From: Moraxella catarrhalis
GTDB taxonomy: Bacteria > Pseudomonadota > Gammaproteobacteria > Pseudomonadales > Moraxellaceae
DNA: 64,000 bases
Direction of reading: 5' to 3'
NCBI RefSeq assembly: GCF_001656295.1
Contig: NZ_LXHE01000014.1
Coordinates: 1 to 64,000 of the forward strand
Shown in pieces: positions 1,818 to 18,877 of this stretch. The notes beneath the pieces were generated by a model that was not told the DNA's origin, searched no databases, and saw nothing but the letters and a program-made list of their open reading frames with translations. The position numbers were made by a program, and so were the translations under genes. Numbering within the stretch: the first letter of the stretch is position 1; the number at the start of each line of letters is the position of its first letter.

Positions 1818-2813
1818 TTAACCACTGTGCTCGAGAAGATCATAATCTTTAAAGCGCACCAACTCTTCGCCTGTCAGTTCGTTTAGTGCAGATATTCTAC
1901 GCTGCATCGGCAATATCTCATTATACCAAAACATCTCTGAGGCGTCCTTAATCGAACCAAATCCACCACTATTGACGGGTACAATCCCCATCAGCTGGGG
2001 CGGAATGCGCAAGCTGCTTAACACATCATCACGTGTTATATTCTTGATTGTGCCAAAATCATCTTTGGCAGCAATCTCAGAGACAGGGATAATCTGAATG
2101 CCATCTTTTTTACCGTTAGGACTGTAAAAGAATAAATTGCGAAAATTGCCTGGCCCTTTGGATTCTTTGAGTGCCTTGCGTAGTGCATCGATGTCGTTTG
2201 GATCGTTGGCAGGATCATTCACATATAAGATAAAACCTGCATGACTACCATTGTTGTAGTATTTGCGTCGAAATAAAGTTGCTGATTCATTTAGCCATGC
2301 GCTTTGCAAGGTCGCAAAGTACTCAGGTGCGCCATATACTTCTTGGTTTATGTCGCATTCTTTGACATGATGCACACGGTTTTTAAATTTGTACTCATTT
2401 TTGCCAAGTTCGTCATTGTAGAGCATCCAAAACTCACCGTCACGACCACGGCGCGTATATTTTGCAAGTGCTGGACGGTATTCTATGACACCACCACCGA
2501 CGCTGCGAATCTCTTCAAGATAGGCATTACCACACCATGTAAAATCAAGCGCAATTTGTTCGAATGACTTGCGACTCAAGCGTTTTGATGGGATAAATAA
2601 ATTCGCTAAAAAATTGCGCTTAAAAACAATCCCGCTTGACAGATACGGCATTGACTTGTAACAGCGCGAGAGCGCATGCAGATTCGTCGGCGGCTCATAC
2701 CATCTACCATTATAATAACATTCTACATAGTCGAAAATCTCACGCCCTGAGAGTGGCTCAGGGTCGCCAAAAGTAAATGCTTGGGCGTGTGGGGTGATTG
2801 TCATATTCATCAT
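1818..2813 (-). CDS. Q: Phage portal protein (P2 gpQ family)
   Basis: Portal protein, which forms the dodecameric ring at the capsid vertex for DNA entry and exit. The product is 331 aa, close to P2 gpQ (344 aa), and belongs to the PBSX/P2 portal family. Recognisable segments are the N-terminal FGDPEP and PLSGREIFDYVECY, PPTNLHALSRCYKSMPYLSS, and the C-terminal LRIPPQLMGIVPVNSGGFG. It is the distal gene of the leftward terminase-portal operon, which probably starts at the palindromic late promoter near 4768. A small broken reading frame lies between it and the terminase gene. Confidence 0.93.
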   Translation of the reverse strand: MMNMTITPHAQAFTFGDPEPLSGREIFDYVECYYNGRWYEPPTNLHALSRCYKSMPYLSSGIVFKRNFLANLFIPSKRLSRKSFEQIALDFTWCGNAYLEEIRSVGGGVIEYRPALAKYTRRGRDGEFWMLYNDELGKNEYKFKNRVHHVKECDINQEVYGAPEYFATLQSAWLNESATLFRRKYYNNGSHAGFILYVNDPANDPNDIDALRKALKESKGPGNFRNLFFYSPNGKKDGIQIIPVSEIAAKDDFGTIKNITRDDVLSSLRIPPQLMGIVPVNSGGFGSIKDASEMFWYNEILPMQRRISALNELTGEELVRFKDYDLLEHSG

Positions 2814-2815
2814 TC

Positions 2816-2929
2816 CTATGCTAAATTCTTAATAATCTCTCGTTCGCGCTCGGACAGCTGCCATTCAATAATATCTATTTTATCTATTTGAGCTTGTTTG
2901 GCTTTGGTTTATTGTTGGCTTGTTTTCAT
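2816..2929 (-). pseudogene. Small gene between terminase and portal, interrupted by an in-frame TAA
   Basis: An ATG at 2929 overlaps the terminase stop as TGATG, the usual sign of coupled translation. The frame reads MKTSQQ, then a TAA at codon 7, then a further 30 codons (TKAKQAQIDKI... ending EREREIIKNLA) to a TAG just before the portal gene. The tail is charged, helical and protein-like. A single CAA-to-TAA change would explain it. No good restart codon follows the stop. The function is unknown. Confidence 0.5.
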
Positions 2930-4692
2930 CAGCTTATCTCCATAAATCCGGTGTTGTTCGTTGTTTGGCCAGCAAGCGGCTCATGGTGCAGTGCGTGCAT
3001 CAGCGCCCAAGCTAGGTCAGCATGTCCGATATCTTCTGAACGTGCAGACACAAAAGTCATCTGTCTTTGGCTGGCGGTTAATGTTTTTTTGATACTCATC
3101 AGGCTTTGGGCGAGGTCTGTATGACCTGCGTCAAACTCAAGTCGCCCATTTTTGACCACATCCCACGCCTTGAGCACTAACTGTGTCTTGACCTCGGGCG
3201 AATAGTTAAAAGTGGTCAGCGCTGGGTAGAACTCTCGTACGAGCTGCGCGACACCTGTTCCCATCCCAGTGCTGTCAATACCAATATAAGCAACATTGTA
3301 GCGATGGGTGACGCCTTGGATGACTGCAGCTTGGGCTGCGAAGTCCATGCCCTTAAATTGTTGGCGCTCAAGCACTCGAAACTTGCCATTTACCACCGCT
3401 GGCGGTGCAACGACCACAAGCCCTGCACTATCCCCTGATTCTGCAGGATCATAGCCAACCCATACAGGTTTATTGCCAAATGGGCGTGCATGCAGAGGCT
3501 TGAAATCTTCGCTCCACATCTCCCAGCTATCGACCATACATGGCTGCAACATGTTTAGCGGAAATACGCTTTCACCGTCATCAACGAATTCACACATCAA
3601 AAGATTGGCAAAATCCGCCGCTGAGTATTCAAACTTCAGCTCGTCAATGTCAAATAAATCACAGCCACCATTTTGAGCATCCATGATGGTGACAATCTGA
3701 CGCCATAGCTTGTCTTCACAGTGCTTGCCATTCTTGAGTGCGTCATGACTAATGTCAATTTTTAGGTGCTTTTCTTTTGGCTTACCCTTGTTAAACCTTG
3801 AACCCGTCCAGAATGTATAAGCTTCGTGCGTGATGGTTGAAGGTGTAGAAAAATAAGTTTTGCGCCATTTTTTGTGCATCGCCATACCTGATGCCACTTT
3901 GTTCAGCTCATTAAAGCCATACACCCAGAAGAATTCATCAAAATAGAAATTGCCGTGATGACCCTGTGCCGTGCGCGCGTTCGTGCCTAAGAATGTCAAA
4001 CTTGCGCCATTGGATAGTACGATTGGATCACCTGAGAGCTCTACCCCACAGGCTTCGTGAGCAAACTGCTTGATATATTCTTTGAAAATGTGCGCTTGGG
4101 CTTTTGACGCTGATAAAAATATCTGATTGCGTCCCGTCGTGACAGCATCGATCAATGCCTCACGAGCAAAATACCACGTCGCCCCAATCTGACGAGACTT
4201 GAGAATGACGCGCGTGCGTTCGCCGCCCGCCTGATACCAAGTTCGCTGATAATCAAATAATGATTCTTCAAAGGCGATAATAAGCTTCTCTACTGCTTCG
4301 TCATCGAAGGTGTTCGCCTTACGTTTTTTTGCCTTGCCACGCTCTGATAGCTTGGGGTTGAGATCTGCCTCATTGCCATCGGCTCGATAACGCTCTAGGC
4401 GTGCAAATTCTTTATAATTTTTGAATAACTCGGCAAGCTCTTTATAGTCGCCTGACGTCTTTTTTTCTTTCATAATCAGGGTCATCAAACGCATCTGTAA
4501 CGCCTGTTCGACGCGGTTCGTGCCATGAATTTCGTCCCACTTATCGCGGTGCTTCCAGCTTGCGATGGTGTTCTCATTCTCACCAATGGCGGCGGCTATG
4601 TCTGCGTTGCGCCAACCCATCCACCCTAAGAATTTGGCTTTTAGGCGGTTATCAAGTATCAGCTCAAGATTAGCAACATCAGACATTGGCAT
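2929..4692 (-). CDS. P: Terminase large (ATPase) subunit, P2 gpP family
   Basis: Motor and nuclease that packages DNA into the procapsid. At 587 aa it almost equals P2 gpP (590 aa). Order of parts: N-terminal helix-turn-helix (LGWMGWRNADIAAAIGENE), a long helical linker, an ATPase domain with Walker-A-like KSRQIGATW and Walker-B-like FYFDEFF, and a C-terminal RNase-H-like nuclease starting at GYDPAESGDSAG. It is the first gene of the leftward operon, divergent from the scaffold gene, with the shared palindrome at 4756-4780 between them. Confidence 0.95.
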   Translation of the reverse strand: MPMSDVANLELILDNRLKAKFLGWMGWRNADIAAAIGENENTIASWKHRDKWDEIHGTNRVEQALQMRLMTLIMKEKKTSGDYKELAELFKNYKEFARLERYRADGNEADLNPKLSERGKAKKRKANTFDDEAVEKLIIAFEESLFDYQRTWYQAGGERTRVILKSRQIGATWYFAREALIDAVTTGRNQIFLSASKAQAHIFKEYIKQFAHEACGVELSGDPIVLSNGASLTFLGTNARTAQGHHGNFYFDEFFWVYGFNELNKVASGMAMHKKWRKTYFSTPSTITHEAYTFWTGSRFNKGKPKEKHLKIDISHDALKNGKHCEDKLWRQIVTIMDAQNGGCDLFDIDELKFEYSAADFANLLMCEFVDDGESVFPLNMLQPCMVDSWEMWSEDFKPLHARPFGNKPVWVGYDPAESGDSAGLVVVAPPAVVNGKFRVLERQQFKGMDFAAQAAVIQGVTHRYNVAYIGIDSTGMGTGVAQLVREFYPALTTFNYSPEVKTQLVLKAWDVVKNGRLEFDAGHTDLAQSLMSIKKTLTASQRQMTFVSARSEDIGHADLAWALMHALHHEPLAGQTTNNTGFMEIS

Positions 4693-4845: not shown

Positions 4846-5676
4846 ATGAAATGGTATAGAGTGGCCGTCGCCGGCCAAACGACCGATGGGCGTGAGATCG
4901 CCGCCGAGTGGATTGAACAGATGGCGGCAAGCTATGATCCGAATGTCTATGGCGCACGTATTAATGTCGAGCATTTTCGTGGCTTTATGCCAGACGGTGA
5001 TTTTGGTGCTTATGGCGATGTGCTGGCGCTCAAAGCTGAAACGATTAAAGTCGGTAATGAAGATAAATTAGCACTATTTGCTCAAATCCTTCCAAATGAC
5101 AAGCTCAAAGAATTAAACGCCAAAAATCAAAAAATCTACACATCAGTGGAGATTGATACAAACTTTGCTAAGACTGGCAAAGCATACTTGGTGGGCTTGG
5201 CAGTCACGGACAGCCCCGCAAGCCTAGGTACCGAGATGCTTAAGTTCGCTGCAAATGCGCAAGTCAATCCGCTGGCACATAAGAAACAGTCAGCAGACAA
5301 CTTATTCACCGCTGCCATCGACATTGAATTTGATTTTTCAGAGCGTAATGCAAGTCTGGCTGACAGCATCGTTGCCAAGCTCAAAGAATTCTTCAGTGAA
5401 AAAGAGCAGGTAACACCACCTGAAGACACACAAGTGGACACCGAAGATACAGAAAGCGAAGCGCAGGCACACTTTGACAACATTGAAGCGACCGCCACCG
5501 CAGTTGCCGCTGTGATGTATGAGATGCAGGCAGATTATCGTGCGGATGTTGAGCGTCAATTTGCCACACTGACATCTCAGATCGAGAAGCTAAACGCGCA
5601 GTTGGATATTATCCCACAGCACCCTGCCCGACCTGATGCGGTATCTACTGAAAACACCATGATTATTGATTGCTAA
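4846..5676 (+). CDS. O: Capsid scaffold and maturation protease, P2 gpO family
   Basis: Scaffold with an N-terminal serine protease that cleaves the capsid protein and itself. The product is 276 aa (P2 gpO 284 aa). A candidate catalytic triad D14, H43 (NVEHFRG) and S100 (IYTSVEID) has the same spacing as D19, H48 and S107 of P2. The C-terminal half is an acidic helical scaffold region. A good ribosome site (GGAG) precedes the ATG at 4846. It is first in the rightward head operon. Confidence 0.92.
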   Translation: MKWYRVAVAGQTTDGREIAAEWIEQMAASYDPNVYGARINVEHFRGFMPDGDFGAYGDVLALKAETIKVGNEDKLALFAQILPNDKLKELNAKNQKIYTSVEIDTNFAKTGKAYLVGLAVTDSPASLGTEMLKFAANAQVNPLAHKKQSADNLFTAAIDIEFDFSERNASLADSIVAKLKEFFSEKEQVTPPEDTQVDTEDTESEAQAHFDNIEATATAVAAVMYEMQADYRADVERQFATLTSQIEKLNAQLDIIPQHPARPDAVSTENTMIIDC

Positions 5677-16992: not shown

Positions 16993-18159
16993 ATGACAGA
17001 TTATCATCACGGCGTCAAAGTCTTAGAGATTAATGAAGGCACTCGTCCGATTCGGACCGTGGCCACAGCAGTAATCGGACTGATTGCCACTGCGGATGAT
17101 GCAGATACAACCACTTTTCCGCTTGACACAGCGGTACTGCTGACAAATGTACAGGCCGCCGTTGGCAAGGCGGGCAAAAAAGGCACACTCGCCAAGTCAC
17201 TACAAGCCATTGCAGATCAAACCAATGCCATCACCGTGGTGGTGCGTGTGGCAGCCAGTGACGAAGAAGAAGCCCAAACGGCGGCCGTCGTCGGCGGTGT
17301 TGAAGAAGGTAAATACAAGGGTATTAAGGCGCTTTTGACTGCCGAAGCCAAATTTGGTGTCAAGCCCCGTATCTTAGGTGCGCCAGGTCTAGACACTGCC
17401 GCTGTTGCGACTGCACTGGGCGCTGCTGCCCAGCAGCTGCGCGCATTTTGTTATGTTTCGGCACACGGCTGTAAGACCAAAGAGGAGGCTACCGCGTTTC
17501 GTGATGCACTGGGTGGGCGTGAGATTATGGTGATTTGGCCTGATTTCTTGGCATTTGATACCACATCGAAAAAAACCCAGTCAGCACCCGCGGTTGCCTA
17601 TGCTTTGGGACTGCGTGCCAAAATTGATCAAGAGCAAGGCTGGCACAAAACCCTATCCAATGTCGTGGTTAATGGCGTTGTGGGTATTGATAAAGATGTC
17701 TACTGGCAGCTACAGAGCTCCGCTACCGATGCTGGCTATTTAAACGAAAAAGAAGTCACTACCTTGATTCAGCGTGACGGCTTTAGATTCTGGGGTTCTC
17801 GTACTTGTACCAAAGATCCATTATTTGCATTTGAGAATTACACGCGCACCGCGCAGGTCTTGGCAGACACCATCGCCGAGGCGCATCTTTGGGCAGTGGA
17901 TAAGCCAATGCACCCAAGCCTAATCCGCGACATCATCGAGGGCATCAATGCCAAATTCCGTGACCTAAAGGCTCAAGGCTATATCATCGACGCTAATTGC
18001 TGGTACGATCCAGAGCTCAACACCAAAGAGACGCTTAAAGATGGGCAGCTACGCCTGGATTATGACTACACGCCGGTACCACCGCTTGAGAACTTGACAC
18101 TTCGTCAGCGTATCACTGACAGCTATCTGGCTGAGTTTGCAAGCCGAATCACGGCATAA
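16993..18159 (+). CDS. FI: Tail sheath protein FI, P2 family
   Basis: Contractile sheath subunit of 388 aa (P2 gpFI 396 aa). The pattern HHGVKVLEINEGTRPIRTV, FRFWGSRTCTKDPLFAFENY and YWQLQSSATDAGYLNE is characteristic. CAGGAGAGAG precedes the ATG. It starts the second rightward late operon. A strong terminator follows, unusual because in P2 FI and FII are contiguous. Confidence 0.95.
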   Translation: MTDYHHGVKVLEINEGTRPIRTVATAVIGLIATADDADTTTFPLDTAVLLTNVQAAVGKAGKKGTLAKSLQAIADQTNAITVVVRVAASDEEEAQTAAVVGGVEEGKYKGIKALLTAEAKFGVKPRILGAPGLDTAAVATALGAAAQQLRAFCYVSAHGCKTKEEATAFRDALGGREIMVIWPDFLAFDTTSKKTQSAPAVAYALGLRAKIDQEQGWHKTLSNVVVNGVVGIDKDVYWQLQSSATDAGYLNEKEVTTLIQRDGFRFWGSRTCTKDPLFAFENYTRTAQVLADTIAEAHLWAVDKPMHPSLIRDIIEGINAKFRDLKAQGYIIDANCWYDPELNTKETLKDGQLRLDYDYTPVPPLENLTLRQRITDSYLAEFASRITA

Positions 18160-18161
18160 AT

Positions 18162-18197
18162 AAAAAACCGCCAAGTTGTGCGGCTTGGCGGTTTTTT
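18162..18197. terminator. Bidirectional terminator shared by FI and the minus-strand crRNA unit
   Basis: Fourteen-base perfect arms (18162-18175 and 18184-18197) of the form A6-CCGCCAAG / CTTGGCGG-T6 with an eight-base loop. On the plus strand it ends the FI transcript. On the minus strand it starts one base after the last CRISPR-like repeat and would end the short crRNA precursor. Confidence 0.9.
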
Positions 18198-18198
18198 G

Positions 18199-18286
18199 GA
18201 TTTAAGCTATCTGTGTGATAGAGAACATGAGCCTATTCAATGAAGGTGGATCATACATTTTCTAAGCTACCTATGCGGTAGGAAGT
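18199..18286 (-). CRISPR. Minimal repeat-spacer-repeat array, type I-F-like, no cas genes
   Basis: Read on the minus strand, two 28-nt repeats flank one 32-nt spacer. Repeat 1 is 18286-18259, the spacer 18258-18227 and repeat 2 18226-18199. Repeat length, spacer length, a 5-bp stem with a 5-nt loop at repeat positions 6-20, and the 8-nt 3' handle of repeat 1 (CTTAGAAA) all match type I-F. The stems covary: CTACC/GGTAG in repeat 1 and CTATC/GATAG in repeat 2, against CTGCC/GGCAG in classic I-F repeats. From memory, repeat 1 matches a known I-F repeat in about 21 of 28 bases and repeat 2 in about 16. Cas6f cutting after each stem would give a standard 60-nt crRNA. No cas gene is in the window, so a host Csy complex would be needed. 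The spacer resembles the start of an FII tail-tube gene. Confidence 0.87.
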
Positions 18287-18289
18287 AGC

Positions 18290-18295
18290 ATTATA
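18290..18295 (-). promoter_or_regulatory. -10 box of the crRNA unit
   Basis: Perfect TATAAT on the minus strand. The expected start site, about 18283, falls two bases before the first repeat hairpin, so the transcript would begin with the stem. No clear -35 is visible, so the promoter may be weak, activated or of another type. Confidence 0.55.
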
Positions 18296-18361: not shown

Positions 18362-18877
18362 ATGGCTTTACCAAAAAAATTAAAACTGATGAATTTGTTC
18401 AATGAGGGCAATTCATACATGGGGCAAACAGGCGAAGTCACTTTACCAAAGCTCGCCCGTAAATTCGAGGATTGGCGTGGTGGCGGCATGAACGGCACCG
18501 TCAAGGTTGATCTAGGCTTATCAGACGATACCAACGAATTTGAGTGGAAATTGGGCGGTATTGATAGCCAAGTGCTTGAGCAGTTCGCCACGCCGACTGT
18601 GTCAGGGGTGGGTTTGCGTTTTGCAGGCTCTTATCAGCAGGACGACACGGGCGAAACCACAGCGGTGGAGATCGTCGTACGTGGTCGCCATGAAGAGATT
18701 AACCTCGGCTCTGCCCAATCGGGTGAAGACACAGAAGTCAGCATCAAGACCATTTGGAGCTATTACAAACTGACTATCAATGGCAAGGTGGTCATTGAAA
18801 TTGACATCCCGAACCTTGTCGAAAACGTCAACGGCAAAGATATGCTGGCAGAGCATCGCAAGAATATCGGTGCTTAA
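18362..18877 (+). CDS. FII: Tail tube protein FII, P2 family
   Basis: Tail tube subunit, 171 aa (P2 gpFII 172 aa). The opening MALPKKLKLMNLFNEGNSY, the RGGGMNGTVKVDLGL segment, RFAGSYQQDDTGETTAVEIV and the closing EHRKNIGA all match the family. AGGAG lies before the ATG. Bases 18389-18420 inside it are the partial match to the spacer of the crRNA unit just upstream. It is cut off from FI by a terminator and about 200 bases, so it may need its own promoter or read-through. Confidence 0.95.
   Translation: MALPKKLKLMNLFNEGNSYMGQTGEVTLPKLARKFEDWRGGGMNGTVKVDLGLSDDTNEFEWKLGGIDSQVLEQFATPTVSGVGLRFAGSYQQDDTGETTAVEIVVRGRHEEINLGSAQSGEDTEVSIKTIWSYYKLTINGKVVIEIDIPNLVENVNGKDMLAEHRKNIGA
18389..18420 (-). 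other. Protospacer-like site in FII matching the upstream spacer
   Basis: These 32 bases align without gaps to the spacer at 18227-18258 with 23 identities. On the minus strand the site is preceded by CCCC, so it has the CC PAM used by type I-F. The eight PAM-proximal bases match exactly. The mismatches, counted from the PAM, are at 9-12, 15, 24 and 26-28. Most are transitions at codon third positions. Confidence 0.8.

Follow-up and report, generated by a model that had tools for sequence, protein, structure and literature searches.

Mini-arrays carried by viruses and directed against their relatives were described by Medvedeva et al. 2019 (PMC6858448). In the sections of that paper available to us, the carriers' own targets are altered and the targets lie near the array, and the authors call the origin and the consequence unclear. 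According to the same sections, phage mini-arrays reported by others hit adjacent genes of relatives but not those of the carrier, and lack leaders. We take these arrays, cited there as reference 58, for those of Faure et al. 2019; a 2024 review (PMC11656645) and a model paper (PMC7099407), as far as their available parts go, agree with PMC6858448 on the phage mini-arrays. Among the titles and abstract beginnings screened, there was no account of such arrays in this bacterial group or of homing by mini-arrays. Here we analyse a one-spacer array found in a 64-kb stretch of DNA, hereafter the window. It belongs to the already published kind, interviral mini-arrays with neighbouring targets included. 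The first-pass annotation of this DNA had regarded the placement, with a diverged and covarying I-F pair, as new; however, published phage mini-arrays already include some that target neighbouring genes, as the available parts of PMC6858448 and PMC11656645 attest.

Organization of the array

The array is located between FI and FII of a P2-like prophage, flanked by the genes of the tail sheath and the tail tube. FI (16993..18159, plus strand) was assigned as the tail sheath gene by phrog_23 (E 8.1e-139), and FII (18362..18877, plus strand) as the major tail tube gene by TIGR01611 (161.7 bits, cut-off 102.75); the PHROGs label for the FII family is head closure. On the minus strand, TATAAT is the first element of 18162-18295; 4 nt later comes a 27-nt repeat, which a 32-nt spacer separates from one of 28 nt, and a hairpin terminator closes the series. 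The leader-side repeat (18259..18285, minus strand) contains the 5' handle CTTAGAAA of the crRNA. The spacer (18227..18258, minus strand) reads MSLFNEGGSY on its plus strand and is homologous to the start region of FII. The distal repeat (18199..18226, minus strand) has an intact hairpin and decayed terminal bases (AAATC). The first-pass annotation had proposed a type I-F crRNA gene in the FI-FII interval of a P2-like prophage, and both the covariance model described below and the phrog_23 and TIGR01611 neighbours bear this out. Its spacer of exactly 32 nt (18258-18227) stands, as do the retained hairpins and 5' handle, with decay confined to bases unneeded for one crRNA. It had also given two repeats of 28 nt, which is correct for the distal one; the leader-side repeat measures 27 nt, the claimed 28th base being the last base of the leader.

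The TATAAT at the leader-repeat junction (18290..18295, minus strand) is a possible -10 box. Its 4-nt distance to the repeat is the same in three genuine arrays that we aligned. Beyond the TATAAT the leader is not conserved, a Mu-like mini-array has no TATAAT at all, and a consensus promoter scan reported no promoter at 18290..18295. At the other end, a 14-bp perfect hairpin (18162..18197; -19.3 kcal/mol, z -4.85) was designated as the minus-strand terminator of the array unit. By reading, a T run is also present 3' of this hairpin on the plus strand, at the end of FI, and the terminator scan listed it for the minus strand only. Cas genes are absent from the prophage, as judged from the ORF list, and a phage mini-CRISPR array has one or two spacers on a virus without accompanying cas genes. 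The annotated absence of cas genes is thus true of the surroundings of the array but not of the genome, which has a full I-F set. The spacer-FII match, the CC PAM, the terminator, the leader junction, and the host I-F system had not entered that annotation.

Identity and folding of the repeats

A covariance model was built from ten genuine I-F repeats, aligned with the hairpin 6-10/16-20 imposed. The host and same-genus genomes supplied eight of them, multi-repeat arrays of viral contigs (L166 and L167) supplied the other two, and no repeat from any single-spacer mini-array was taken in. When both strands of the window were searched with the filters off, the two best matches were the two array repeats, the leader-side one with 38.4 bits (E 2.1e-6) and the distal one with 21.7 bits (E 0.015), and the third-best match had an E-value of 3.2; these values are rough, the calibration having been short. 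The two repeats lie on a common strand, 32 nt apart. Such a search had been suggested with the first-pass annotation, and its outcome agrees with the proposal. Against the Rfam family CRISPR-DR4, whose gathering score is 35, the leader-side repeat reached 29.8 bits (E 7e-5 for the 301 bases given) and the distal repeat 17.8 bits (E 0.34), and at the gathering threshold neither was listed. The leader-side repeat is the genuine same-genus repeat CTTCACTACCGCATAGGTAGCTTAGAAA minus one A, and it matches a real-array repeat of another species in the genus (G006) bar one deleted A. The pair has the features of a 28-nt I-F repeat with the hairpin at 6-10/16-20 and a 3' AGAAA, the deviations being the 27-nt length of one repeat and the loss of AGAAA from the distal one. 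The spacer length of 32 nt is that of a type I-F unit.

The compensating base pairs had originally been read as the sign of an unusual, diverged repeat pair. We compared 11 repeats, six from mini-arrays and five from longer arrays. Pair 8 is A-U in 10 of the 11, and a U-A at pair 9 is shared by the distal repeat, one repeat of a Mu-like mini-array, and one genuine array. The proportion of stem cells that are paired (92.7% versus a shuffled mean of 77.7) and the covariation score (0.531 versus a shuffled mean of 0.213) were each equalled by 0 of 500 shuffles. Pairs changed on both sides numbered only 3 (47 of 500 shuffles as high) and further pair types 5 (482 of 500 as high), and 4 of the 11 repeats do not form pair 6-20. 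The covariation is therefore real by two measures and absent by two others. Because the same stem variants also occur in genuine arrays, it is ordinary for this repeat group, and the original reading is not supported. Both array repeats fold at 6-10/16-20, although modestly (16 and 10 of 200 shuffles were equally stable), and the fold of the whole 88 nt is no better than that of shuffles (70 of 200 as good).

The host type I-F system

A search of the genome for a cas locus, likewise suggested at the outset, was successful. The host genome (G000, 26 contigs) has a 25-repeat I-F array together with Cas1f and Cas3f on contig C23, outside the window, and Csy1, Csy2, Csy3, and Cas6f/Csy4 all exceed their NCBIfam cut-offs. 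At the gene level, the host thus possesses a complete CRISPR-Cas system of the type of the mini-array. The I-F genes on C23 are split (L124 10308-11950 and L086 2125-7588), and the interval between cas2/3 and csy1 holds hsdM, of a type I restriction-modification system, and other genes.

The repeats of the mini-array are not identical to those of the host array: the host repeat CTTCACGACCGCACAGGTCGCTTAGAAA differs at stem pair 7, and the identical stem is found in an array of the other species, G006. In the available parts of the reviews, identity with the host repeats is a usual property of mini-arrays; function does not require it. Given the difference at stem pair 7, the probable source of the mini-array is a strain or species whose arrays have the other repeat type. 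When the 24 host spacers were compared with the window, none matched above 22/32, which is the chance level.

The FI-FII junction in related phages

We collected 111 FII loci, comprising 80 viral contigs (the best 80 of 161), 28 named genomes, 2 same-genus genomes, and the window; the loci were not made unique, and some of the 80 viral loci recur among the 28 named-genome loci. The FI-FII gap was measurable in 109 of them, L065 and L080 having given no FI end. It is 30 nt or less in 93 of the 109, 37-57 nt in 13, and more than 100 nt in 3. With the viral loci limited to the best 80 of 161, these three are the window, the identical record L006, and L007, and the gap of L007 contains a hairpin and, by eye, a small frame, and no repeat. 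L113 comes from the contig that also gave L006, and over 9.6 kb it shows zero differences from the window. Therefore, we counted the prophage once, and the second record gives no independent support. L007 is the closest viral-contig relative among the matches listed, and its different cargo at the junction (about 2766-3000) suggests that the FI-FII junction is a cargo site in this phage group.

The spacer and its match to FII

The protospacer of a type I-F system adjoins a 5'-CC PAM. The FII protein starts with MALPKKLKLMNLFNEGNSYMG, and on both strands of the window the top non-self match of the spacer is the carrier's own FII at 18389..18420 (plus strand), with 23/32 identical bases and the CC PAM kept (gg at 18421-18422); the runner-up has 21. 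The mismatches are located at positions 9-12, 15, 24, and 26-28. At the peptide level, own FII is also the best match in the window, with a score of 44 versus 34 for the best of 8 shuffles. Among 107 P2-like loci, of which the viral ones are the best 80 of 161, the top relative is the FII of L018, which matches at 27/32 beside a CC PAM and has an FI-FII junction of 19 nt. The maximum of 40 spacer shuffles over the same 107 loci was 22. When the 15 bases on each side of the spacer were compared with three FII genes, only 3-6 of them matched. Because the similarity to FII is bounded by the repeats, the segment fits a spacer and not a duplicated piece of the gene, and a partial duplication of FII was rejected on this ground. 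Judged from these matches, the spacer represents part of the tail-tube gene adjoining the array, FII.

The best relative is thus matched more closely than the carrier (27/32 versus 23/32), as in arrays that target relatives and whose own site is altered. A CC PAM stands beside both matches, and an exact protospacer was not found. A protospacer with PAM within 3 mismatches was present in 0 of 347 other genomes of the family (one per species), an exact 20-mer of the spacer with PAM in none of the viral contigs, and the search for a perfect target with a 23-mer returned the identical prophage record only. At position 3, within the seed, the L018 site does not match the spacer. Most FII relatives match at 19-25/32, many of them without a CC PAM.

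Other phage arrays

A plain repeat pattern detected five stretches in the viral contigs, namely this prophage, a single repeat (L164), a single-spacer mini-array (L165), four repeats (L166), and a long array (L167). The same-genus search added a mini-array (L126) in a prophage of G010, which is Mu-like by gene content (by reading). By PHROGs, the genes on either side of the L126 array are those of a terminase and a head-tail adaptor. The best match of its spacer is in the adaptor gene of L156, 27/32 with a CC PAM (shuffles up to 23), and the adaptor gene of L126 itself is diverged at the site, with CA in the place of the PAM. The peptide test in the own locus gave no match (best 25; shuffles up to 31), and the best DNA match in the rest of the contig was 19, so that this case rests on the relative L156. 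The L165 array adjoins terL, which was identified by relatives and reading. Of 79 other viral loci (the terL loci being the best 80 of 117), 11 carry a terL that its spacer matches at 27/32 beside a CC PAM (shuffles up to 22), and a seed mismatch at position 3 was seen in all three relatives checked. The own terL of L165 matches at 26/32, with the CC PAM kept and mismatches at 3, 6, and 8. For the spacers of the window, L126, and L165, no perfect target was found.

Canonical gamma-type I-F repeats gave 13 stretches, and the 7 with three or fewer exact matches were inspected. The single spacer of L255 had no neighbour match at the DNA or peptide level, and neither had L253, with four repeats and three spacers. 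The three spacers of L166 had no match in 13.4 kb. L260 has nine repeats, and L251, L254, and L258 have lone repeats. Among the readable single-spacer phage arrays, three of four (the window, L126, and L165, not L255) are therefore located beside a gene whose relatives match. The distance from the array to the own homologous site is 102 nt in the P2-like, about 0.4 kb in the Mu-like, and 716 nt in the terL-linked phage. All three arrays are antisense to the operon of the target gene, and their spacers do not share one orientation relative to the gene: two are antisense, and that of the Mu-like L126 is sense. These numbers are small, and for L126 and L165 it was a comparison of the spacer with its neighbour that first revealed the target; such a directed search does not affect the strengths of the matches, but units without a neighbour match are more easily overlooked.

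Several of these and further units deserve mention in their own right. The L255 mini-array (4888-4975, minus strand), on a 36-kb viral contig, has a second repeat with a decayed end followed by a terminator-like stretch, and its surroundings look, by eye, like a tail gene cluster. The four repeats and three spacers of L166 (5953-6160, minus strand) have a neighbour that resembles, by eye, ribonucleotide reductase. On a 40.8-kb viral contig, L256 (774-887, plus strand) has three I-F-like repeats 12 and 18 nt apart, too tight for spacers; the RNA, with several hairpins, may be a decoy. One I-F-like repeat, ATCCATGACCACATAGGTCGCTTAAAAA, stands by itself in same-genus prophages of G007 and G008 (L122 3050-3077, minus strand; L119 459-486, plus strand); as judged by eye, it falls within the 5' leader of a small gene of the prophage, right after a TTGACA promoter-like stretch, and is a candidate RNA anti-CRISPR. 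The single I-F repeat of the viral contig L164 (2175-2202, minus strand) has promoter-like TTGACA and TATAAT upstream and is enclosed by the inverted repeat TGTGATGCAG...CTGCATCACA, which could close the RNA into a stem (by eye). The unit L125 (2178-2265, minus strand; G006:C1:1268177-1268264) consists of a repeat, a 32-nt spacer, and a decayed second repeat between two large I-F arrays of G006. It was rejected as a phage mini-array, lying in an apparently intergenic region among genes that look chromosomal by eye, and its spacer had no match within its 5 kb.

Function of the array

We favour, with a probability of roughly 0.7, the reading that this is a one-spacer phage mini-CRISPR array that excludes rival phages by means of the host Csy complex. 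The parts of the array, the host genes, the target family, the PAM in relatives, and the mismatched own site are seen in the sequence, and from them we infer how the mini-array may be transcribed and processed, act in interference, and benefit its carrier. A minus-strand transcript of ~120 nt would be cut after each hairpin by the host Cas6f (Csy4), releasing one crRNA that consists of the handle CUUAGAAA and the spacer. Use of the repeats by this Cas6f is a prediction, with stem pair 7 differing from the host array. The crRNA would load the host Csy1-3 complex, which would bind FII of related P2-like phages beside the 5'-CC PAM and recruit Cas2/3 for destruction, so that the lysogen would exclude its rivals. 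The prophage itself would probably escape, since its own FII is mismatched at 9 of 32 positions, including four consecutive ones just past the seed. With the array adjoining FII, the guide and the tolerated target allele would stay together through phage recombination. Escape of the carrier appears best supported for the window and the Mu-like L126. The own terL of L165 (26/32, CC PAM) speaks against it, being by base count hardly further from the spacer than its relatives (27/32). In addition, own FII retains the CC PAM, matches the spacer at all 8 seed bases, and could therefore conceivably provoke primed adaptation.

It seems unlikely that the unit is instead a dead relic, that is, a fragment of some bacterial array, or a partly duplicated FII, trapped in the prophage and devoid of function. 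A relic would explain the one-base deletion in one repeat, the decayed end of the other, the leader gone beyond the TATAAT, the lack of a perfect target, and the poor fold of the whole unit. However, the hairpins, handle, 32-nt spacing, and terminator are intact, the decay lies outside one crRNA, and the FII similarity ends at the spacer boundaries, unlike a duplication. Somewhat more doubtful still is RNA-guided homing, which is compatible with exclusion. The host Cascade-Cas3 would cut the array-less locus of a co-infecting relative, and repair would copy the array together with the tolerated allele. The short distances to the homologous site in three phage kinds and the empty FI-FII junction of nearly all relatives are what homing would produce, but linkage by itself accounts for adjacency, and L255 has none. 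Cas3-type degradation is also expected to leave ends that are poor for repair.

The likeness to single-repeat anti-CRISPRs, which the first-pass annotation had pointed out, is a weaker fit, since the array has a pair of repeats around a 32-nt spacer as well as a target family. A repeat-mimic transcript would tie up Cas6f/Cas7f and shield the prophage, and the spacer would be incidental. A single I-F repeat RNA from a prophage does inhibit type I-F, according to the available parts of PMC10651486, and the present prophage resides in an I-F host whose array repeats differ from those of the mini-array. Nevertheless, Racrs are solitary repeats, whereas two repeats here enclose a segment of exactly 32 nt for which a relative has a matching site, beside a CC PAM, in a phage gene, and an anti-CRISPR needs no spacer. 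Because no host spacer exceeds 22/32 in the window, a need for inhibition is not seen, and we consider this function distinctly improbable. Self-regulation, in which the crRNA would attach to own FII through the perfectly matched seed, leave the gene uncut, and damp it, is more improbable again. It draws on the CC PAM and the 8 matching seed bases of own FII, followed by mismatches at 9-12. In the parallel cases, however, the own terL is mismatched at 3, 6, and 8 and the own site of the Mu-like phage is diverged with CA for a PAM; self-regulation is less likely because these cases do not combine a self-binding seed with a PAM, and the mixed spacer orientation also speaks against it. We discarded antisense regulation of FII mRNA as a general rule, given the sense orientation of the Mu-like spacer to its gene, and the mixed orientation also makes an antisense RNA less likely.

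Comparison with known systems

As a mini-array for the exclusion of rivals, the locus is most readily compared with those of Faure et al. 2019, which, in the sections available to us of PMC6858448, PMC7099407, and PMC11656645, likewise have one or two spacers against related viruses, no cas genes, and temperate phages as carriers. Some of them also target adjacent genes of relatives while sparing the carrier. In these accounts, their repeats are called identical to those of the host and the host leader is absent or different, whereas the repeats here differ from the host array and the TATAAT junction alone is kept. The mini-arrays of the Portoglobovirus SPV1 and SPV2 share the targeting of relatives, the altered own target, and targets near the array. 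They belong to an archaeal virus, have a host-like leader, and are thought able to gain spacers, as stated in the available sections of PMC6858448. The present array, in contrast, belongs to type I-F, has one spacer, and retains none of the leader past the junction. RacrIF1 is also an I-F repeat RNA encoded by a prophage, but it is a solitary repeat without spacer or target, as far as the available parts of PMC10651486 go.

The locus is a clean bacterial case in which a temperate phage seems to borrow the host CRISPR against competitors, with a complete I-F system in the same genome. Three arrays with related repeats, in P2-like, Mu-like, and terL-linked phages, make the question of adjacency testable, that is, guide-allele linkage versus homing. 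In the intronless homing and marker exclusion of phage homing endonucleases, the gene of the cutter adjoins the site that is cut in relatives lacking it. The cutter is a protein nuclease in that case, whereas here it would be a guide for the host nuclease, and its spread is a proposal. If homing is true, mini-arrays beside their target genes would be natural RNA-guided homing elements, with an anatomy common to three kinds of phage.
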